The translations under genes and the position numbers were made by a program. Source: Sulfurimonas sp. (GTDB lineage Bacteria > Campylobacterota > Campylobacteria > Campylobacterales > Sulfurimonadaceae). From it: 64,000 nucleotides of DNA. Positions 6,714-40,142 of this stretch are shown here, piece by piece. Location: the NCBI RefSeq assembly GCF_026196735.1, contig NZ_JAPHUF010000012.1, positions 372,001 to 436,000 on the forward strand, read 5' to 3'. Positions within the stretch are counted from its first letter, which is position 1; the number at the start of each line of letters is the position of its first letter. The notes below the pieces were generated by a model. The model searched no databases, was not told the origin of the DNA, and saw nothing but the letters and a program-made list of their open reading frames with translations.

Positions 6714-8851
6714 ATATACAAGCAAAAACTTGTCCTATAACAGCCAAACATATTAAGATAGCATTAGTCGGACAGCCAAATGTCGGTAAAAGTATGCTCA
6801 TCAACTCTATCTCAAATGCACATCTACATGTAGGGAATTTTACCGGTGTAACGGTTGAGAAAAGTGAAGTTCTTTTTGACTATAAAGACTACCACTTTAC
6901 TGTTGTTGATTTGCCTGGAACTTATGCATTAAATGAGTATACAATCGAGGAGAGAGTTACTAGCGAGTACTTGTCTGCTGAGGATTATGACCTAATTATA
7001 AATGTAGTTGATTCTACAAACTTGGAAAAAAATCTTCAACTGACTTCTGAACTTATGAGTGTTGGCAAGAAAATGGTTGTAGCCCTAAACATGAGTGATG
7101 AAGCTGACAGAGAAGGCATAGAAATAGATGAGAAATACATGTCTCAACTTCTTGGTTTTGCTTGTGTAAAAGTCTCCGCTGTAACAAAATCAGGAATAGA
7201 AGATCTTATCGAGGCTATTATAAGTGAGTACGAAAATGAAAGTTTAGAGCATAAACTTATTTTTAGTGAAGCAGTAGAACAGGAGATTTCTGAAATTGTA
7301 AAGTACCTGACTAAGCACAAATATCAAGATGAGAATTTATACAGAAATATAGCGATAAATCTTTTAAAAAATAACAAAAGTACTTATGCAAAACTCCATG
7401 ATAACCCTATATGGACGGAACTGCAGCCAATTCTACTAGAAGCAACTAAACATGTCGAACTACATCATGATTCTGATGATATTAAAGAGGCTTTTGCTTC
7501 AGAGTATGCATCATTTAACAGGGGAGTCGTTGCAGAGGTTTTAAAGCAAAACAAAGAGCCTGAGAAAAAAACTCTTACAGATAAAATAGACAGTGTTTTA
7601 ATAAATCAAATATTTGGTATACCGATATTTTTATTTTTTATGTGGGGATTGTTTCAGCTTACTTTTGAAATAGGTGCAATTCCTATGGAGTATCTAGATG
7701 CCTTGTTTGGATGGTTTGGTGATACAGTCGGTGCGACTATATCAAACGATGATATTCGTTCGTTGGTCGTAGATGGGATTATTGCAGGTGTTGGTGCTGT
7801 TGTGCTTTTTGTACCAAATATCGTCATACTTTTTATAGGTATTGCTCTGCTTGAGAGTACAGGCTACATGTCAAGAGTTGCGTTTTTGCTTGATGGATTT
7901 TTTCATAAATTTGGACTTCATGGACAATCGTTTATACCTCTTGTCACCGGTTTTGGCTGTTCTATTCCCGCTTATATGTCAGCTAGAATACTCAAAAACG
8001 ATAGAGACAGACTTTTAACTCTGTTTATTATAGGTTTTATGAGTTGTGGAGCCAGACTTCCGGTTTATGTACTCTTTGCAGGCGCATTTTTCTCCCCTGA
8101 GAAAGCAGGAACCATTTTATTTGCCATTTATATAAGTGGCGCAATGATTGGGCTAATAGCAGCAAAAGTACTTAAATTAACAGCCTTTAAGGGTGTGGAT
8201 GAGCCATTTGTTATGGAGATGCCAAAATATAGACTGCCGTCTTTTAAACTTATGTGGCATACGGTTATGACAAAGACTTGGATGTATTTAAAAAAGGCCG
8301 GTACTTTTATCGCAGCAGCTTCAATGTTAGTATGGTTTTTAAGTAACTACCCTAAAAACTTGGTTTTACAAGAGAGTTTTCAAACTAAAATAGAGAGTAC
8401 TGCAAGTGAAAAAGAAAAAGCTCAATTGCAAAATGCTCTCTCTCAAGCAATGCTTGAACAGAGTTATTTAGGAACAATCGGTAAGTTTTCTATGCCTATT
8501 TTTGAACCGCTTGGCTTTGATTGGAAAATGAGTGTAGCACTTCAAACTGGACTTGCTGCAAAAGAAGTAGTTGTTTCAACACTGGGAGTCTTGTACTCAT
8601 TGGGCGATGATGTAGATGAGAAGAACAACTCTTTGATAAATGTTATATCTAAAAACATACCATTTGCATCAGCTGTGGCATTTATAGTAGTTATCATGGT
8701 TTATCTGCCATGTTTGGCTGCTTCAGTTGTCTTTACTCGTGAAGCTGGCGGAATAAAATATTTCTTTTATCTTCTTGGTTTCACATCTGTTGTAGCTTAC
8801 TCGCTTGCGTTCATTGCCTTTAATGTCACATCAATGTTTTTTATTAACTAG
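6710..8851 (+). CDS. feoB: Ferrous iron transport protein B
   Basis: Inner-membrane Fe(II) permease with an N-terminal G domain. Visible motifs are G1 GQPNVGKS (residues 21-28), a switch region with GNFTGVTVEK, G3 DLPGTYAL and G4 NMSD. The following helical domain leads to two Gate-type membrane repeats, including GFGCSIPAYMSARIL and GFMSCGARLPVYVLFAGAFF, whose Cys residues line the proposed pore. At 713 residues it has the expected length for a FeoB without a FeoC fusion. It is coupled to feoA. The two-component genes start 30 bases after it. Confidence 0.97.
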   Translation: MNIQAKTCPITAKHIKIALVGQPNVGKSMLINSISNAHLHVGNFTGVTVEKSEVLFDYKDYHFTVVDLPGTYALNEYTIEERVTSEYLSAEDYDLIINVVDSTNLEKNLQLTSELMSVGKKMVVALNMSDEADREGIEIDEKYMSQLLGFACVKVSAVTKSGIEDLIEAIISEYENESLEHKLIFSEAVEQEISEIVKYLTKHKYQDENLYRNIAINLLKNNKSTYAKLHDNPIWTELQPILLEATKHVELHHDSDDIKEAFASEYASFNRGVVAEVLKQNKEPEKKTLTDKIDSVLINQIFGIPIFLFFMWGLFQLTFEIGAIPMEYLDALFGWFGDTVGATISNDDIRSLVVDGIIAGVGAVVLFVPNIVILFIGIALLESTGYMSRVAFLLDGFFHKFGLHGQSFIPLVTGFGCSIPAYMSARILKNDRDRLLTLFIIGFMSCGARLPVYVLFAGAFFSPEKAGTILFAIYISGAMIGLIAAKVLKLTAFKGVDEPFVMEMPKYRLPSFKLMWHTVMTKTWMYLKKAGTFIAAASMLVWFLSNYPKNLVLQESFQTKIESTASEKEKAQLQNALSQAMLEQSYLGTIGKFSMPIFEPLGFDWKMSVALQTGLAAKEVVVSTLGVLYSLGDDVDEKNNSLINVISKNIPFASAVAFIVVIMVYLPCLAASVVFTREAGGIKYFFYLLGFTSVVAYSLAFIAFNVTSMFFIN

Positions 8852-32956: not shown

Positions 32957-33283
32957 TCAGTAAAGCTTAGAGTTCATATTGAACTTATCGTAGTAGACAT
33001 CAATCATCTCTTTTAACAGCTTGTCATCCAAGCTTGTTTTTTCTTTTATGCCAAACCTATTTAGATATCCGACAGGCAGAATTGATTTTTCAAATGTAGG
33101 GTTTTTGAGATACTCAAATATCGCTTTTTTGATTTTTTTTTCGCTGCTGTATTTTAGAGTATATTTTTTCATCATCATATTAAATTTAAAATCATCTCCG
33201 TGACAATTTAAACAGTTTTGCTCAAATGAAGATGCACCCAAAATAGACGAAAATAAAATTATAAATATAGTTGTTCTTACCAT
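32957..33283 (-). CDS. Small periplasmic c-type cytochrome-like protein
   Basis: The 108-residue product has a signal peptide (about residues 1-18) and one heme c attachment site, CLNCH (NCLNCHGDDF, residues 24-28). Two Met-rich clusters are possible distal ligands (NMMMKKY). The domain lacks the full class I cytochrome c fold signature. It is the last gene of the two-component operon, overlapping the kinase stop by seven bases. This suggests a redox or metal-sensing accessory for the kinase, but that link is inference. Confidence 0.75.
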   Translation of the reverse strand: MVRTTIFIILFSSILGASSFEQNCLNCHGDDFKFNMMMKKYTLKYSSEKKIKKAIFEYLKNPTFEKSILPVGYLNRFGIKEKTSLDDKLLKEMIDVYYDKFNMNSKLY

Positions 33284-34425
33284 GTCAATATAACCTTTGT
33301 ACCTTTGTTGATAACGGATTTAATATCAATTTTTATATCATACTCATCTATAATAGATTTGATGATGTCATAGCCGATTCCAAATCCGCCTTGAGTTTTA
33401 TCGAACCTGCGATATCTCTCAAAAATTTTATTTATTTCATCCTCGCTCATCCCTTTGCCTTCATCAGAAACACTTAGTAATGTTGAGGTTAAAGTGATAT
33501 TTATATTAGTCTCTTTATCTGTATATTTAATGGCATTAGAGAGTATATTGTCAATCAAACGCTCTATTTTTTGCTTGTCTGCATTGAAATATACATTTTC
33601 TTCTATCTCTGCATGTATGTTTAGTTTTTTAATATTTGCCATATGCGTAAAATAGTGTATTCTTTGATTTAACATGTCAGATAAATTCAGCTCTTCGTTT
33701 TGAGATGAGACTTGATGGTTTAGCAGAAGGTAAACCAAGTCCTGATACAAGTTTGAGACGGTAGTAGAAGCCGTTTTTATTCTTTGGAGTTTTTTCATGG
33801 ATTTTTCATCACAGTTTTGTGGATCGAGTGTCTCAATATTGGCAAGAATTGTTGTAATTGGAGTATTTAACTCATGCGTTGTGTCTTTGATGAAGTTATC
33901 CAGAAGCCGTAGATTGTCTCTTAATGGTTTTAACACAAGTTTTACTAAGAAAAAAGAAGTAATTATAGTAATAATTATTACTACTATTGCAAGAGTGACT
34001 AACTCATTTAAAATATTCATAGGGGTGGTTTTTTTCTCTATCACTGTGTATGCAGCACCAAGATAGTAAGGTTGAAGTGAAGATATATAATATGAATTGG
34101 AACCAATAAAGAAAAATTCTTTATCCAAATCTGTTACTTGTGTTTTAAGTGTTGAAAAAATCAAGTTTTTATCTATATCGTAAATAGCACTGTTGAAATC
34201 TTTAAATCTTGGATATTCATATTTTTCATCACTGCTTTCATGAACAGATAAAAGTTTATCCTCAAGTGTCAAGCTGTACTCTTTTAGAAGCTCTTTTTCA
34301 CTGTGTGTGAGCTGCTCTTGTTTGTAAAAATAGTAACTGGTAAAAAGTGTTGCAATCAAAAGCAGGGTAGAGCTTAAGTAAAGAGCAAGCACATAAATTA
34401 TAGTTTGTTTTTCGCTCTTATACAA
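33277..34425 (-). CDS. Sensor histidine kinase
   Basis: Membrane sensor kinase of 382 residues. TM1 spans about residues 10-30 and TM2 about 137-160, with a roughly 105-residue periplasmic sensor domain between. The H-box is DTTHELNTPITTILANIE, the N-box NILSNAIKYTDKE, and G boxes are DEGKGMSEDEINKIF and GGFGIGYDIIK. Its start overlaps the regulator gene by eight bases. Together with the regulator it likely controls the adjacent TolC exporter and small proteins through the repeated promoter motif described below. The signal is unknown. Confidence 0.94.
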   Translation of the reverse strand: MYKSEKQTIIYVLALYLSSTLLLIATLFTSYYFYKQEQLTHSEKELLKEYSLTLEDKLLSVHESSDEKYEYPRFKDFNSAIYDIDKNLIFSTLKTQVTDLDKEFFFIGSNSYYISSLQPYYLGAAYTVIEKKTTPMNILNELVTLAIVVIIITIITSFFLVKLVLKPLRDNLRLLDNFIKDTTHELNTPITTILANIETLDPQNCDEKSMKKLQRIKTASTTVSNLYQDLVYLLLNHQVSSQNEELNLSDMLNQRIHYFTHMANIKKLNIHAEIEENVYFNADKQKIERLIDNILSNAIKYTDKETNINITLTSTLLSVSDEGKGMSEDEINKIFERYRRFDKTQGGFGIGYDIIKSIIDEYDIKIDIKSVINKGTKVILTW

Positions 34426-35074
34426 GTTTATAACCTACTTTTTTTATACTTAGTATATTTTCTTTTCCTAAATGTTTACGCAAGTTTTTTATGTATGTTC
34501 TTAAACTCATTTCACTGTGGGGCTTATCAAATGACCAGACATTTTGGTAAATATCTTCAAATGATACACACTCATTTTTATGTTTTAAAAGTAATTTTAA
34601 AAGTAGAACTTCTTTTGGATTTAGCAATATTTTTTCGTTATCAACTATAAGTTTAGTTGTTTGAGTATCAAAATATATATCTTTAGTTACAAGAACAAGA
34701 GCATCTTGCGATTTAAATTCTCTTTTTAAAAGTGCTTTTATGCGAAACAGCAACTCCTTTAAAGCAAAAGGTTTTTTTATATAATCATCAGCACCGGATG
34801 TATAACCTTGAGATAAATCATCAATACTGTTGAGTGAAGTTGTGAAAATAGCAGGAGTTGATATGCCGGCCTCTCTTAGCTCTTTTAGCAAAGCAAATCC
34901 GTTAATCTGTGGAACATTTACATCAAGTAAAAACATATCAAAATTCTGTTTAAAAATAGTTTCTAAGGCTTCATTTCCATCATAAACAGCAACAATGTCA
35001 AAGCCTTCATCTATCAGAAACTCTTCAACCGTTTCTGATAAATCTATGTCATCTTCTAAGTATAAAATTTTCAT
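34418..35074 (-). CDS. OmpR/PhoB-family response regulator
   Basis: The 218-residue protein has a receiver domain with an acidic pair (LEDDIDLSE), the phospho-acceptor Asp in MFLLDVNVPQINGF, and Lys in YIKKPFALKE. A winged-helix domain follows (SLRTYIKNLRKHLGKENI to VGYKLV). OmpR-family regulators bind direct repeats spaced 10 or 11 bp. Three such repeats at 11-bp period lie upstream of the 101-aa, 82-aa and TolC genes. It probably shares a transcript with the upstream 101-aa gene, 23 bases away. Confidence 0.94.
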   Translation of the reverse strand: MKILYLEDDIDLSETVEEFLIDEGFDIVAVYDGNEALETIFKQNFDMFLLDVNVPQINGFALLKELREAGISTPAIFTTSLNSIDDLSQGYTSGADDYIKKPFALKELLFRIKALLKREFKSQDALVLVTKDIYFDTQTTKLIVDNEKILLNPKEVLLLKLLLKHKNECVSFEDIYQNVWSFDKPHSEMSLRTYIKNLRKHLGKENILSIKKVGYKLV

Positions 35075-35097
35075 AAAAAATTATACCTAAAAAACTA

Positions 35098-35403
35098 TTA
35101 TGCATATACTAAAAAACCTTCAGTTTCTGCTTCATTGACATCAGCCTTAGTCAAAATATCAAGAAGTGTTTGAGTGTATTCTTCAGCACTCATAGCAGAA
35201 GCATCTACCTCTTTCATTTGGGTAACTGCCGCCATTCTCTCTTCTTCACTCATAGAGCTAAGACTTTCTTTCATGGTATCTCTATCTTGGGTAGATAAAC
35301 TCTGCATGATATCTCTCATACCGCCTTGACCCTGACCTCCGCCAGAACCATCCATTTTTCTCATCTGCATTTGCTGCATTGAGCTATATGAACCTACATC
35401 CAT
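35098..35403 (-). CDS. Small Met/Gly-rich protein of the two-component operon, 101 aa
   Basis: No family recognised. The N-terminus is Met/Gln-rich and then Gly-rich (MQQMQMRKMDGSGGGQGQGG). The rest is an acidic helical segment with a CpxP/Spy-like flavour (DRDTMKESLSSMSEEERMAAVTQMKEV). No clear signal peptide is seen. A perfect AAGGAG site lies ahead of the ATG. A direct-repeat operator and TATACT -10 precede it, so it probably starts the operon that continues with the response regulator, kinase and cytochrome. The Met-rich start could bind Cu(I), which is speculation. Confidence 0.65.
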   Translation of the reverse strand: MDVGSYSSMQQMQMRKMDGSGGGQGQGGMRDIMQSLSTQDRDTMKESLSSMSEEERMAAVTQMKEVDASAMSAEEYTQTLLDILTKADVNEAETEGFLVYA

Positions 35404-35432
35404 TTTGTCTCCTTTTTTACTAAAGATAAAAA

Positions 35433-35466
35433 AGTATATGTAATAAATGTGAAAAAATCGTGAATT
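35433..35466 (-). promoter_or_regulatory. Direct-repeat promoter of 101-aa/regulator/kinase operon
   Basis: Read on the minus strand: AATTCACG, three bases, TTTTCACA (35448-35466), nine bases, then TATACT (35433-35438) as a -10. The same geometry is found at 35777-35810 and 40109-40142. The repeat sits 45-63 bases before the 101-aa start codon and where the -35 would be, as for an activated promoter. This implies autoregulation by the encoded response regulator. Confidence 0.65.
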
Positions 35467-35500
35467 CTTACTTTTGAGAACGATTTTTGCTTGTAGTTAG

Positions 35501-35749
35501 TTATCTACGACCGCCTCCGCCGCCTTTAGAGCCTTTATATTGATTTCCTGTTCCGTCTTGGGGACCTGAACTTCCTGCATTCTCATTTCCTTTTCTGTAC
35601 CTGTTTTGTTTTTTTTCACCGGAGCCTTGATTATTTTGATTCATAGAGCGCTCTTGTATCTGTTGCATTTTTGCTTCATGTTCTGCAAAGCTGTCCTCTG
35701 CAAAACAGATACTCGCTGCCAACACTGAGAGTAGTAAAATTTTTTTCAT
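35501..35749 (-). CDS. Small secreted glycine/asparagine-rich protein, 82 aa
   Basis: A signal peptide (MKKILLLSVLAASICFA) is followed by an exported region of about 65 residues, low-complexity and basic. It is rich in Gly, Asn, Gln and Lys and ends SKGGGGGRR. No family recognised. It lies downstream of the exporter ATPase gene but has its own direct-repeat promoter, so it can be induced strongly and separately. It might be a periplasmic stress protein or a substrate of the exporter; neither can be shown from sequence. The ribosome site AAGGA is eight bases before the start. Confidence 0.65.
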   Translation of the reverse strand: MKKILLLSVLAASICFAEDSFAEHEAKMQQIQERSMNQNNQGSGEKKQNRYRKGNENAGSSGPQDGTGNQYKGSKGGGGGRR

Positions 35750-35776: not shown

Positions 35777-35810
35777 ATTATGATGATAATCTGTGAAATA
35801 TTTGTGAAAT
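35777..35810 (-). promoter_or_regulatory. Direct-repeat promoter of 82-aa secreted protein
   Basis: Minus strand: ATTTCACA, three bases, ATTTCACA (35792-35810, two perfect copies at 11-bp period), nine bases, then CATAAT (35777-35782). It is located 43-61 bases upstream of the 82-aa gene, between it and the ATPase stop. This is the best-matching of the three sites and defines the consensus. Confidence 0.7.
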
Positions 35811-35814
35811 GAAA

Positions 35815-36528
35815 TTACAATATTTGTTTCTCATCTGAATCATGAAAAACTATGCCTCTGTTTTGTATTTTCATTATTCTGTCACAGTATGGAAGGATTC
35901 TTTCATCATGCGTAACTGTGATGATTGCAACATTTTGCTCGGATGCAATCTTTTTAAGCATTTTTATAACACTAACAGCTCTCTCACCGTCTAATGCAGC
36001 CGTTGGCTCATCTGCAAGGATTATCTCAGGATTGTTTGCAAGTGCGCGTGCAATCGCAACTCTTTGGTTTTGTCCTCCTGATAGTTGTGATGACATGTTG
36101 TATGCTTTGTCGTCTATTTCGAGGTATTTTAAAAGCTCCATGGCCTTCTTTTGAGCATCTTTTTCACTTACTTTATTTGCTTGAGGAAGAAGTGTTATGT
36201 TTTCTAAAACATTTAAAAATGGTATTAGATAGTGCGCTTGAAATATAAAACCAATCTTCTCTCTTCGAATGCGACGAGTATCTTTTGCCATCCATTTGTC
36301 TTTGTAGACCATGTCTTCTCCAAGCCAAATTTCTCCGCTTGTCGGCTCTATTACACAGCCTATCATCATCAAAAGAGTTGTTTTTCCTGCACCGCTTGGC
36401 GCAATGAGTGCAACAACTTCGCCTTTTTTTATTTCAAATGAGGCATTTTCAATAACCTTAACAAGGTTTTCATCTTTTCCAAAATTTTTGACTAAGTTTT
36501 TGACTTTAATGGCGATTTGTTGATTCAT
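35815..36528 (-). CDS. ABC exporter ATP-binding protein, MacB/LolD type
   Basis: The 237-residue ATPase has Walker A APSGAGKTT, a Q-loop (IGFIFQAHYLIPFLNVLENI), signature LSGGQNQRVAIARAL, Walker B IILADEPTAALD and the H-loop His (VTHDE). The Q-loop spacing and signature match LolD/MacB ATPases, which pair with FtsX-like permeases. It abuts the permease gene with no gap. Walker A starts with AP in place of GP, a small deviation. It energises the exporter formed with the next three gene products. Confidence 0.93.
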   Translation of the reverse strand: MNQQIAIKVKNLVKNFGKDENLVKVIENASFEIKKGEVVALIAPSGAGKTTLLMMIGCVIEPTSGEIWLGEDMVYKDKWMAKDTRRIRREKIGFIFQAHYLIPFLNVLENITLLPQANKVSEKDAQKKAMELLKYLEIDDKAYNMSSQLSGGQNQRVAIARALANNPEIILADEPTAALDGERAVSVIKMLKKIASEQNVAIITVTHDERILPYCDRIMKIQNRGIVFHDSDEKQIL

Positions 36529-37674
36529 TTATCCTCCGATTGCTTGTGCAGGATCTGCACTTATTACTTTTTTTACACCTACAAAAGAGGCCAATATAGA
36601 AGCAACAATAATTACGCCAAAAAGTGTCCACGCATCAGGAATTTCTAATACAACTAATTTTGGGAACTTATCGTAAGTGAAATGTGAAAATATATTTCCA
36701 AAAATAAAAGCGAAAATACCAAGCAGCAGAGTCTCTTTAATAATCATATTTATAATCAAGCTGTTTGGCAGGCCCATAAGTTTCATAATGGCTATCTCTT
36801 TCATTTTCTCTAGAGTCATCGTATATATGATAAGTGCGATAATAATCGTTGAAACAACAACGAGTATAGCTGTAAAAAGTCCTATCTGCTTTGAAGATTT
36901 TTCTATCAGGTTTTTTGTCAATATATCTTTTTGCTGCTGCGCCGTATATACATTTTTATGTTGCCATTTTCTTATACTCTGTGCCACTTCATTTACATCA
37001 TATCCATCTTTAATCGTTGCAAGAACAGTGTTTACCATCAATGATTCAGAGTTTTTTACTCCTCTGGCTTCGTTGTTATGAATCTCTTTGTTTGAGTACA
37101 AAAATTGCAGCTCCTGAGCATCTTTTAAGCTGATGTATACCAATGGGTCTCCACCTGATGATACGGTGTTACGCGTGATACCGACAACTGTATAAAAATT
37201 TCTTCCAAGTTTGATTTTATCTTCGAGTTTAAAGCCGGTCTTGTCAGTTACTACAATCTCATAGTGATTAGTTTTTAGCACACGCCCAGCTATCAATCTG
37301 TCCTTGTTTATTGGATTGATTGTTCCATAAACATCATATCCGACTGCAAAAACACGAACAGGCTTGATTTCATGAGGAAGCTGAATGTTTTGAAAAGTCA
37401 TAGCTTCACTTTTATCTATGCCGTCTACAACGAAGATAATATTTTTAAGATCTTCATGAACTCTGGAAGATTCCGCAAAAGGTCCCATTGTATTTTCTTG
37501 GACAATCCATAAATCAGCATTGATATCGTTGAGTAATATCTCCGCTTCAGCGACCATGCCACGATAAACACCAATCATAATAAGAACAATTCCAAGTAAC
37601 ATTCCGACACCCATGGCAGTAACAATAAACTTGCCAAGAGTGTGCTCAATATCCCTTGCAGCTAAATTTATCAT
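36529..37674 (-). CDS. ABC exporter permease, FtsX/MacB_PCD type (DevC-like)
   Basis: The 381-residue membrane protein has an N-terminal TM helix (about 15-40), a periplasmic MacB-like domain of about 220 residues and three C-terminal TM helices. It contains the FtsX motif EKMKEIAIMKLMGLPNSLI. The topology is that of DevC or MacB without a fused ATPase. The four-base overlap with the adaptor gene marks a single operon. The substrate is not readable; relatives export peptides, macrolides or glycolipids. Confidence 0.9.
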   Translation of the reverse strand: MINLAARDIEHTLGKFIVTAMGVGMLLGIVLIMIGVYRGMVAEAEILLNDINADLWIVQENTMGPFAESSRVHEDLKNIIFVVDGIDKSEAMTFQNIQLPHEIKPVRVFAVGYDVYGTINPINKDRLIAGRVLKTNHYEIVVTDKTGFKLEDKIKLGRNFYTVVGITRNTVSSGGDPLVYISLKDAQELQFLYSNKEIHNNEARGVKNSESLMVNTVLATIKDGYDVNEVAQSIRKWQHKNVYTAQQQKDILTKNLIEKSSKQIGLFTAILVVVSTIIIALIIYTMTLEKMKEIAIMKLMGLPNSLIINMIIKETLLLGIFAFIFGNIFSHFTYDKFPKLVVLEIPDAWTLFGVIIVASILASFVGVKKVISADPAQAIGG

Positions 37675-38816
37675 CTATATATCTTCATTCCATCGCGGAG
37701 CGGTTTGTTGCTGCTTGTATACAAAAGCAGTTCACTGTCGGCGTTGATCCCTGATGAAACGGCGGCTTCATTATCACTTTTTGCTAAAATAGATATTGGT
37801 TTAAAATTGGCAGTTGTACCATTTGCCACCCAAACACCTTTTTTGCCATTTCTTGTAACAATTAACTTAAGAGGAATTTTCAAAACATTTTCATATTTGG
37901 CTACTTTAATTGAAACTTCTGCCTGCTCATTTATGTAAAACGGAGTAGGAACGACATCAAAACCGACAGCTACTTCTCTTTCAAGCGTTACGGCATTACT
38001 TATGGCTACTACTCTTTGAATAGTTCCGGTTAATGCTGTATTAGGCTGAGACCTAAGTTTTATTGAGGCTTTTTGCATCAGTTTAACTTTGTCTGATAAG
38101 CGCTCATCAATATTTACTTTTACCCATAATGTTTTTGGGTCTACAATTTTAAAGATTGTAGTTGAAGGTAGAACATATTGTGCAGCTTGGGCCTCTTTTG
38201 CAATAATATATCCGTCTACAGGAGAGTAGATTTTAAGTCTTTGTATTTTGGTTGCTATTGCTTCTATACTCTTTTTAAGGCGTGATTTTTCTGATGATGC
38301 AGAAGCTATCTGCGAGTTAGCGGCATTTATCTGTGCATTGATGTTTTGAAGATCGCTTTTTGCCTTATCGTACTCTGCTTGAGTTGCAAACTTCTGCTCC
38401 ATAAGCTTTTTGTAACGCTCGTAAGTTGCCAACAGAAGCACTTTTTGAGCTTCGAGACTCTCTAAAGTGCTTTTTGCAGCATCAACTTCATGTTCTGCCC
38501 TTTGTAAAGCAAGTTTTGCCTCATCGTGAAGCATTGGTAATTCAACCGGGTCTATGCTGATAAGAAGTTCTCCTTTTTTTACCCACATTCCCTCGTCAAA
38601 GTATATGTTTTGTATCTTTCCGCCGCTTTGCGCTGTAATGTTATATATATTTTTTGCATCGACATTTCCAATACCGCGTATTGTTACATTTAAGTCTCCG
38701 GTAACAGGTTTAGTAGTTGCAAAAGTTGATTTTACAACATAAACTTTGTTGTAAAAAATAGCTCCGCCTAAAATGATAAGAAGTGTTATAATTGTATATT
38801 TTAGCAATTTGCTCAT
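37671..38816 (-). CDS. Periplasmic adaptor (membrane fusion) protein, HlyD/MacA type
   Basis: The 381-residue adaptor bridges an inner-membrane ABC permease and a TolC channel. An N-terminal anchor helix (residues 7-24) precedes split lipoyl half-motifs (GKIQNIYFDEGMWVKKGELLISIDP and KIYSPVDGYIIAKEAQ) and a long coiled-coil hairpin between them. Beta-barrel and membrane-proximal domains follow. The coiled coil contains many Ala, Glu and Lys heptads (about residues 90-190). It overlaps both neighbours by four bases. Confidence 0.92.
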   Translation of the reverse strand: MSKLLKYTIITLLIILGGAIFYNKVYVVKSTFATTKPVTGDLNVTIRGIGNVDAKNIYNITAQSGGKIQNIYFDEGMWVKKGELLISIDPVELPMLHDEAKLALQRAEHEVDAAKSTLESLEAQKVLLLATYERYKKLMEQKFATQAEYDKAKSDLQNINAQINAANSQIASASSEKSRLKKSIEAIATKIQRLKIYSPVDGYIIAKEAQAAQYVLPSTTIFKIVDPKTLWVKVNIDERLSDKVKLMQKASIKLRSQPNTALTGTIQRVVAISNAVTLEREVAVGFDVVPTPFYINEQAEVSIKVAKYENVLKIPLKLIVTRNGKKGVWVANGTTANFKPISILAKSDNEAAVSSGINADSELLLYTSSNKPLRDGMKIYR

Positions 38817-40075
38817 TTAGTTTGTCCTTGTAAATAGTCTAGTCTATTGATGATTTTAATAACCGCGAATTTGGCTTCTAACAAGCCCAATTCTGCATAG
38901 AGATTTGTTGAAGTTGCGTCAAGTATTTCTATGTATGTTGAGAGCCCTTCTTTGTATCTTGCTTGGACTATCTCTTTTGTTAGCATTGAAGACTCTATCA
39001 AAGCTTTTTTTGCTTTAATAGTGTGCTTGTATCTATCAAAATCAATTATTAAATTTTCAAGTTCTTCTTGGATTAAGAGTTTTTTTGAGTTATATGACTC
39101 TTTTGCCTGTTTTTTTGATATAAGTGCTTCTTGTGTTTGCGCACTAATCCTTCCGCCGCTGTAAATAGGAATATTGATACTGATACCGACCAATGAGGTA
39201 TCGTACTCATTTATGGAATCCTGATGTGTGTATGATGCAACTGCGTCTATTGAACCGTAGTTTTGAGCTTTTGTTGCACTGTATATAAGGTCGTTTCTCT
39301 CTATCTCTTCTTTAGAACTCTTTAGCGTAAAGTTTTTTTCTAAGATATCTTGAAAAAGTAAATCTTCATTTTGCAGAGCTTGATTGTTTTGCAATGCAGT
39401 GTTGTCAACGAGCTTTGTTTCAAAGTCTACTTTTTCTCCCATATATAAAGAGAGTGTAGAAAGCGCTTTGTTTAGGTCAGCTTTTGTTATAGCCAGAGTA
39501 TCCTCAGCAATATACATTGCACTTAGTATGCTTGTTGCGTCTGCCTCGGTTTTTAGACCCTCTTTAACAAGAGCTTGTGCCTGTTTGTAAAGCTCGTTTT
39601 TTGTCTGCAGATCTTTTTGTCTTGCTTTTAGTGCATTGGTTTGAAAGAGTGCTAAATTATATAGATTTTTTACATTGTAAATAAGAAGAGCTTTTGCATC
39701 GTCTAAAGAGATGTTGGCAATGTTTTCATTTTTTTTAGAAGCTTTTATATTTGATGTGGTTCGTGAAAAATCATATATTTTTTGATTTATTTTTGCATCA
39801 AATTGCCAATTGTCATCTTCTATTGTTTTAAATTGACCGTTTTGCGGCATAACAAATGTGTTGATAGGATTGTACTGCGCACCGATATTAATCTGCGGCA
39901 AATAATCAGCTTTTGCTATATCCACAAGATGTCCGCTTTGTTCAACATTTAGAGTCAAGTTTTTTATATCTGGATGATTTTTGAGTGTTTTGTCAATACA
40001 CTCATCAAGTGTTAATTCCTTGGCGCTCAATAAAAAAACAAAAACATATAAATACAGGGTTAAAAATTTTGTCAT
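38813..40075 (-). CDS. TolC-family outer-membrane efflux protein
   Basis: The 420-residue channel protein has a signal peptide (about 1-18) and two OEP repeats. The first begins LTLDECIDKTLKNHPDIKNL; conserved features NIPIYSGGRISAQTQEA and YKEGLSTYIEILDA lie in the second repeat. It is the first gene of the exporter operon, so all components are transcribed from the promoter at 40109-40142. Its last four bases overlap the adaptor start. Confidence 0.92.
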   Translation of the reverse strand: MTKFLTLYLYVFVFLLSAKELTLDECIDKTLKNHPDIKNLTLNVEQSGHLVDIAKADYLPQINIGAQYNPINTFVMPQNGQFKTIEDDNWQFDAKINQKIYDFSRTTSNIKASKKNENIANISLDDAKALLIYNVKNLYNLALFQTNALKARQKDLQTKNELYKQAQALVKEGLKTEADATSILSAMYIAEDTLAITKADLNKALSTLSLYMGEKVDFETKLVDNTALQNNQALQNEDLLFQDILEKNFTLKSSKEEIERNDLIYSATKAQNYGSIDAVASYTHQDSINEYDTSLVGISINIPIYSGGRISAQTQEALISKKQAKESYNSKKLLIQEELENLIIDFDRYKHTIKAKKALIESSMLTKEIVQARYKEGLSTYIEILDATSTNLYAELGLLEAKFAVIKIINRLDYLQGQTK

Positions 40076-40108: not shown

Positions 40109-40142
40109 ATTATAGTCAAGTTTTGTGGAATTATTGTGAAAT
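40109..40142 (-). promoter_or_regulatory. Direct-repeat promoter of the TolC exporter operon
   Basis: Minus strand: ATTTCACA, three bases, ATTCCACA (40124-40142), nine bases, then TATAAT (40109-40114). It lies 49-67 bases ahead of the TolC start codon. Spacer lengths are identical to those of the promoters at 35433 and 35777, so the three units probably answer to the same regulator, presumably the adjacent response regulator. Confidence 0.68.

Follow-up and report, generated by a model that had tools for sequence, protein, structure and literature searches.

A new small-protein family and an apparently secreted, tail-sharing protein between a MacAB-like exporter and an OmpR-type two-component system in a Sulfurimonas-type genome

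Gene content of the locus

We analyzed a 64-kb stretch of DNA, hereafter the window, that corresponds to contig C7 of a 2.19-Mb Sulfurimonas-type genome; among named relatives, Sulfurimonas MAGs are nearest to the locus. A cluster encoded entirely on the minus strand has the order TolC-HlyD-FtsX-ABC-P82-P101-RR-HK-cytochrome c (Table 1). Its two small open reading frames (ORFs), P82 and P101, are sited between the ABC ATPase of an exporter and an OmpR-type response regulator (RR) and histidine kinase (HK) pair, and both lie where the first-pass annotation had placed them, with the lengths that it had given. The exporter as a whole (35815-40075) belongs to the MacB/FtsX type, with FtsX, MacB_PCD, adaptor and TolC matches that all exceed the Pfam cut-offs. 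It is like MacAB-TolC in combining an FtsX/MacB_PCD permease, an adaptor, a TolC channel and an ABC ATPase, but the ATPase and the permease are separate proteins here, as in DevBCA-type exporters.

A TATAAT-like element is located a few bases upstream of the RR start (window 35075-35100), and at the same spot in two related loci (L045 and L078). Judged from its sequence, the RR looks as if it had a promoter to itself and a transcript with hardly any leader. The order RR-HK-cytochrome (cf. window 32957-33283) also recurs in other families (L080, L081, L098-L100, L143), which suggests that the small cytochrome c-like protein is a redox partner of the sensor kinase.

Table 1. Genes and sequence features of the cluster, with the basis of each assignment
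Feature	Position in window	Strand	Basis
P82, 82 aa, signal-like N-terminus, basic Gly/Asn/Lys-rich C-terminal tail	35501-35749	-	ORF; homologues beside exporter
Putative Sec signal peptide, P82 residues 1-17	35699-35749	-	By eye and hydropathy score; inference
P82 tail module GPQDGTGNQYKGSKGGGGGRR, residues 62-82	35504-35566	-	Near-identical tail on L123 DUF1104 protein, same slot
P101, 101 aa, no signal peptide, new family	35098-35403	-	ORF; 42 homologues aligned
P101 helical core, residues 27-65, three helices	35209-35325	-	AF2 model; similarity to DUF1104 helices
P101 C-terminal Tyr-Ala, residues 100-101	35101-35106	-	Alignment of 42 homologues
Tandem regulator box upstream of P82, TTCACAAATATTTCACA	35792-35808	-	Pattern search
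Tandem regulator box upstream of P101, TTCACGATTTTTTCACA	35448-35464	-	Pattern search
Tandem regulator box upstream of TolC operon, TTCACAATAATTCCACA	40124-40140	-	Pattern search
OmpR-family response regulator (RR), presumed owner of the box	34418-35074	-	Response_reg and Trans_reg_C over cut-off; binding inferred
Sensor histidine kinase (HK)	33277-34425	-	HisKA and HATPase_c over cut-off
Small cytochrome c-like protein, one CxxCH	32957-33283	-	Sequence; sub-threshold cytochrome matches; after HK in relatives too
Exporter ABC ATPase	35815-36528	-	ABC_tran over cut-off
FtsX/MacB-type permease	36529-37674	-	FtsX and MacB_PCD over cut-off
Periplasmic adaptor, HlyD/MacA type	37671-38816	-	HlyD_D23 and RND_mfp over cut-off
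TolC-type outer-membrane channel	38813-40075	-	OEP over cut-off

A tandem promoter box upstream of both small genes

About 60 bp upstream of the P82 start, and again of the P101 start, lies a tandem box of the form TTCACA-N5-TTCACA. The P82 and P101 boxes match TTCACNNNNNNTTCACA exactly and the TolC box matches it with one mismatch; scored over 12 positions, the P82 box reaches 12/12, versus 11/12 for both P101 and TolC, which bears out the earlier observation that the strongest match belongs to the 82-aa gene. With up to one mismatch allowed, TTCACNNNNNNTTCACA occurs at only three places in the 64-kb window, upstream of P82, P101 and TolC. Because chance alone predicts a mean of 2.03 such boxes anywhere in the window, this count is not significant by itself; the evidence is the placement, since all three lie at promoter distance from cluster genes. 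Throughout the 2.19-Mb genome the exact pattern is found three times (reversed-pattern control, two), at the P82 and P101 promoters and inside a histidine-kinase ORF.

The position of the box is kept in relatives. Within the 130 bp searched upstream of each gene in the window and 11 further loci (where starts in L118, L120 and L123 are off by one to a few codons), 16/17 regions carry a best box scoring 10-12 of 12 at -56 to -66, and the sole miss is the RR of L078, a locus without a small gene at this place. If P101 directly follows a gene for P82 or for a DUF1104 protein, the box stands upstream of that first gene (L118, L120, L122, L123, L125, L143), and where P101 comes first it stands upstream of P101 (L119, L121, L124, L126). 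A box of at least 11/12 precedes 18/43 P101 genes versus 26/383 other ORFs of the same loci, a contrast that is conservative because the controls still include operon members and over-long P101 reading frames. The P101 count includes a variant, TTAAC(G/A)-N5-TTAACA, upstream of stand-alone P101 genes in other families. Among 10 further genomes the exact pattern occurs at 13 places (7 genomes with a match), about equal to the reversed-pattern control, so a wider regulon is not indicated in those genomes. From these sequence patterns, the membership of both small genes in the regulon of the exporter and the two-component system appears supported, a box at a conserved position preceding each of them, in agreement with the first-pass annotation, which had given each gene its own copy of the regulon promoter.

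The nearest described regulatory parallel, by analogy, is the DccRS-MacABC regulon. The DccRS box is WTTCAC-N6-TTCACW and lies over the -35; dccRS adjoins groEL in C. jejuni. Passages in two reports link the OmpR-like DccRS regulator of C. jejuni with MacABC (Cj0606-Cj0608) and with periplasmic proteins (PMC11365321, PMC9449129). The likeness extends to an OmpR-like regulator with a MacABC-type exporter and periplasmic proteins and possibly to the tandem TTCAC-type box present here. The nearest RR relatives (in the f11 genomes searched) differ in lying behind genes for small secreted proteins, none of them by groEL. Orthology with DccRS was considered and left as a resemblance, as neither the box pattern in 10 genomes nor the RR neighborhood in nine gave it support.

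Conservation beside orthologous exporters

The first-pass annotation would fall if neither ORF were conserved beside orthologous exporters; the genome-neighborhood comparison finds both conserved there. The order TolC-HlyD-FtsX-ABC-(P82)-P101-RR-HK is present in L120, L121, L122, L123 and L124; L118 and L119, at contig ends, have part of it. An intact P101 fills the interval from ABC to RR in the window and in L118 and L120-L124, and it stands immediately before RR in L119 and L126. P82 occupies the ABC-RR slot in the window, L045, L118, L120 and L122. Other arrangements occur: P101-RR-HK-cytochrome without the exporter (L126), exporter-RR-HK-P101 (L134), TolC-HlyD-RND-P101-RR-HK (L133), DUF1104-P101-RR-HK-cytochrome in an Aliarcobacter MAG (L143), and P101 near the exporter but divergent from it (L027). 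Both P82 and P101 are real genes, and they belong to a single cluster that is apparently under local regulation.

Neither small gene is essential to the system, since one relative (L078, genome G180) has exporter, RR and HK but neither of them, with 36 bp from ABC to RR, and another of the same genus (L045, genome G114) has lost P101. In the latter, the cluster is otherwise intact, P82 included, and P101 persists as a remnant (8262-8346) in which the first and last few codons are joined by an internal deletion. The FtsX permease is found in 50/199 genomes (E <=1e-60), far more than either small gene: P101 is present in 18/199 genomes of the order at E <=1e-3 (20 places) and in 20/397 genomes of a phylum sample (profile search), and the much rarer P82 has homologues in 3/199, one of the three being weak with an in-frame stop. 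The P82 match in G055 (E 7.7e-4), which has an in-frame TGA and lies inside another long ORF, was dropped.

P101 defines a new family

P101 has no signal sequence, and its 101 residues include 12 Met, 9 Gln and 9 Gly (pI 4.2). It is laid out as a Met/Gln N-terminus, a Gly linker, 'LSxEDR' helices and a C-terminal -YA. The first-pass description, Met/Gln-rich, then Gly-rich, then an acidic helix region, agrees with this composition and with an AF2 model that has helices at 27-35, 38-50, 53-65 and 73-93 (mean pLDDT 66.6, pTM 0.46). The 42 homologues align over the whole length, with M33, L36 and Y100 invariant and G19, G28, M29, Q34, R41, D67 and A101 kept in at least 90%, and the Met/Gln N-terminus is variable. 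Among the matches listed, no scanned member is claimed by a family over cut-off. P101 is a conserved new family without a Pfam or NCBIfam model.

In most distant genomes P101 stands alone, far from exporter and kinase. An RR or HK lies within 2.5 kb of P101 in 17/43 scored loci (18 if the window is added, its scored copy L048 having been truncated), which is a lower bound because many flanks end at contig ends; the chance expectation is about 4%, with 3 to 32 OmpR-type regulators per genome (mean ~12, 40 genomes). In family f18 (L036, L039, L043, L044), P101 is near groEL and convergent with a NosL-like/ABC cluster.

P101 is probably a distant relative, and not a member, of DUF1104 (PF06518), a family of uncharacterized secreted proteins in Campylobacterota. 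PF06518 is not among the matches listed for P101 or P82 at E up to 10. Compared as a profile, P101 scores 31.3 against DUF1104 in hhalign (63% probability), where 150 column shuffles reach at most 19.7, the reversed profile 16.3 and seven unrelated families at most 14.6. With the signal columns removed the score is 26.4 versus a null maximum of 22.1 (200 shuffles); it is 18.1 against nine tail-less members alone and 28.1 against the helical part of tailed members. The DUF1104 protein of L123 was modeled with helices at 24-30, 36-52 and 55-66 after its signal helix (pLDDT 71.8, pTM 0.46), and the aligned part of the two models has three helices in like order. The proteins also have in common an 'xxEDR...(S/T)xEER' helical pattern, but P101, which has no signal peptide, possesses an additional fourth helix and ends in -YA.

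LTxxQ is the motif of Spy/CpxP proteins, which P101 resembles at its LSxEDR helix starts, and Metal_resist (PF13801) likewise is a clan of Spy-like chaperones. Matches to Metal_resist, all under cut-off, were obtained for 27/42 P101 homologues (best E 1.6e-4), and none is among the family matches listed for the window's own P101; at the profile level the hhalign score is 21.5 (null <=16.4). The CpxP/Spy likeness claimed for P101 at first pass is therefore retained in part: the weak Metal_resist matches and the DUF1104 score above its shuffled null speak for it, but the matches stay below cut-offs and P101 has no signal peptide. Sequence searches of the PDB with P101 gave a best E of 0.17, and Foldseek with the monomer model gave no fold match with E below 1 (best 1.7). 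Spy/CpxP chaperones form a cradle-shaped helical dimer, and the P101 model is of a monomer. The hnRNPQ acidic domain (VIA-align best Z 6.1, a value common for helical bundles according to the tool's own warning) was rejected; sub-threshold hits of this kind, including also Flagellinolysin and Barstar, were taken as chance or composition.

P82 and the Gly/Arg tail

By eye and hydropathy score, the P82 N-terminus, MKKILLLSVLAASICFA followed by ED, resembles a Sec signal; of the 65 residues in the mature part, 13 are G, 7 N, 6 K and 8 Q (pI 9.5). P82 is a fast-evolving, basic and apparently Sec-secreted protein, much as the first-pass annotation described it (secreted and Gly/Asn/Lys-rich). Its homologues lie beside the exporter in L045, L118, L120 and L122, with a further one (L125) on a contig piece without exporter, and paralogues are found in L046, L120 and L121. 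A match to GRP (PF07172) at 21.0 bits, versus a cut-off of 30, is one of composition.

In L123 the place of P82 is taken by a DUF1104 protein (30.1 bits, versus a cut-off of 25) that ends in GPQDGTGNMYKGSNGGGGGGRR, almost P82's own tail; the shared pattern is GPQDGTGN.YKGS.GGGGGRR. P82 therefore has the slot and the C-terminal tail of this DUF1104 member but not the DUF1104 helices. The earlier statement that neither small protein resembles a known family remains true at family cut-offs but has to be qualified for P82, whose tail recurs on the DUF1104 protein that takes its slot in a sister genome.

Gly/Arg tails occur on unlike bodies, namely P82, DUF1104, EF-hand and cytochrome c. At 14/49 exporter loci, one of which (L102) looks spurious, a signal-bearing small protein with such a tail is encoded no more than 6 kb from the exporter; several loci (L102, L104, L108 and others) were scored by six-frame BLAST, as longest-ORF calling had missed FtsX. 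The control loci (407 kb) contain two tailed signal-bearing proteins, both P82 relatives, in loci chosen partly for holding those relatives. In another family, secreted EF-hand proteins with GRGMGRGRF-like tails adjoin the orthologous exporter (L096 4999-5502, L105 4907-5227, L108 4274-4609, L109 5077-5403).

A CpxP-like slot beside two-component systems

The place directly before an RR-HK pair is one that DUF1104 proteins often hold. DUF1104 was detected in 29/100 genomes (PF06518 search), and an RR or HK lies within 1.5 kb in 24/30 DUF1104 loci, versus 8/15 Metal_resist loci and 1/13 control loci; most RRs at the DUF1104 loci are 44-55% identical to the window's RR. P82 and P101, directly before the OmpR-type RR-HK pair, are in a DUF1104-like position. 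Similarly, among the nine best RR relatives in f11 and f14 genomes (44-50% identical), 8/9 directly follow a small signal-bearing ORF, that of G010:C3 having been found by raw translation and L232 being the exception. The window's genome has two further CpxP-like units, DUF1104-RR-HK (L179, G000:C5) and Metal_resist-RR-HK (L201, G000:C18). L229 has, at ~2150-2430 on the minus strand, a short ORF that is rich in Met/Lys/Asp and bears a signal; it directly precedes RR and has a TTCAC-type tandem repeat upstream.

The CpxP-CpxRA system of enterobacteria has a small periplasmic protein next to, and controlled by, its regulator-kinase pair. Here too a small secreted-type protein adjoins an RR-HK pair, with control presumed, but the cluster adds a MacAB-like exporter and a presumably cytoplasmic companion. 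The likeness to the Spy/CpxP clan is partly one of setting, a small protein adjoining an OmpR-type two-component system that presumably controls it, and it differs in that P101 is leaderless and P82, which has the putative signal peptide, is not helical by sequence.

Discussion

P101 is a new small-protein family, and P82 is an apparently secreted protein that has its tail in common with others and takes up a CpxP-like slot. A 2025 review describes general periplasmic chaperones like Spy and Skp as unidentified in C. jejuni and H. pylori (PMC12428200). In many genomes of Campylobacterota, a class of small secreted proteins, DUF1104 together with tailed relatives like P82, adjoins two-component systems of a single clade, in the slot where a CpxP/Spy equivalent is to be expected. 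These concrete candidates, the promoter box and the small regulon are testable in culturable Sulfurimonas, and P101, linked to a like promoter even when it stands alone, becomes approachable in function.

Our preferred reading, to which we give roughly an even chance, is that a local two-component system responding to envelope stress has P82 and P101 as its two dedicated small outputs, with P82 in a CpxP-like accessory slot and P101 as its cytoplasmic companion. We infer that the HK-RR pair (33277-35074) binds the TTCACA-N5-TTCACA box, tandem with an 11-bp period, and that this binding would switch on three units, the MacAB-TolC-like exporter, P82 and P101. P82 would be exported by Sec and occupy the slot held elsewhere by DUF1104 or another small secreted protein before RR-HK, most likely as a small basic periplasmic stress or feedback protein whose disordered Gly/Arg tail may bind damaged envelope material, and it might then be passed on to the exporter. 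P101, which has no leader and is presumably cytoplasmic, would be a relative or look-alike of the helical hairpins of DUF1104 and would be co-induced, and its conserved C-terminal -YA looks like a recognition or turnover tag. The genes with their order and conservation, the boxes, the slot, the tail sharing and the weak fold similarity come directly from the computation. In favor of this reading stand the genome-wide rarity and kept position of the box, the RR or HK genes near P101 and near DUF1104, the tail of the L123 protein and the DUF1104 profile score of P101. Against it stand the matches of P101 below every family cut-off, its stand-alone position in most distant genomes, the loci that have lost one or both small genes (L045, L078) and the lack of a comparable regulon in the 10 further genomes.

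Of the alternatives, the one with most in its favor, though we think it rather unlikely, is that P82 is cargo of the exporter, an idea also raised at first pass, reaching the periplasm by Sec and then being expelled with the Gly/Arg tail as recognition signal. P82 lies inside the exporter operon order and has the same box, and the proteins with Gly/Arg tails near the exporter (14/49 loci, one doubtful, versus two in the 407-kb control) could be read in the same way. According to PMC8277102, MacB pumps expel Sec-delivered periplasmic cargo up to ~10 kDa, from the periplasm and not from the cytoplasm, so P82, at 65 mature residues, fits as cargo too. Against this, 35/49 exporter loci show no tailed protein by the same criterion, so the exporter needs none, and the tails sit on unrelated bodies, some of them by a two-component system without exporter (L143, L008). 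Loading from the periplasm also weighs against a further proposal that we consider improbable: that P101 exits the cell without a signal peptide and that its conserved C-terminal -S.YA is a secretion signal. Y100 is invariant and A101 is kept in at least 90% of the 42 homologues, after a Ser-rich variable tail, and a YA ending is rare outside the family (49/1334 ORFs of the examined loci, nearly all listed ones being P101), but P101 genes are mostly far from any exporter that was found.

We see equally little chance that P82 and P101 bind copper or a similar metal in a metal-stress regulon, with Met-rich P101 in the cytoplasm and P82 in the periplasm. The 12 Met residues of P101, the Metal_resist matches of its homologues and the small cytochrome c after the kinase would favor such a role; the variability of the Met/Gln N-terminus does not, nor does composition, with no Cys in either protein, one His in P82 and none in P101, and the metal-binding function put forward at first pass is accordingly not supported. 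The Metal_resist matches say nothing for metal, since that clan also comprises Spy-like chaperones. That the ORFs are chance low-complexity reading frames is scarcely credible: P82 is of low complexity and has few close homologues, but frames, starts, upstream boxes and gene order are conserved in many loci, which already contradicts the idea.

A bolder reading, of P82 and P101 as a two-compartment stress pair built on one element, is a doubtful proposal at present. The element would be a D-G-[ST]-G segment with a glycine run, found in the secreted tail proteins (P82 and tailed DUF1104) and in the presumably cytoplasmic P101, through which a single client or partner could be bound in either compartment. 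The Gly/Arg tail, for its part, would act as a mobile tag that has passed among DUF1104, EF-hand and cytochrome c bodies and steers secreted proteins to the MacAB-like exporter. Counted over related and hence not independent sequences, D-G-[ST]-G with a glycine run occurs in 6/10 tailed DUF1104 proteins, versus 0.21 expected from shuffling, and in 21/42 P101 homologues, versus 0.34 expected.
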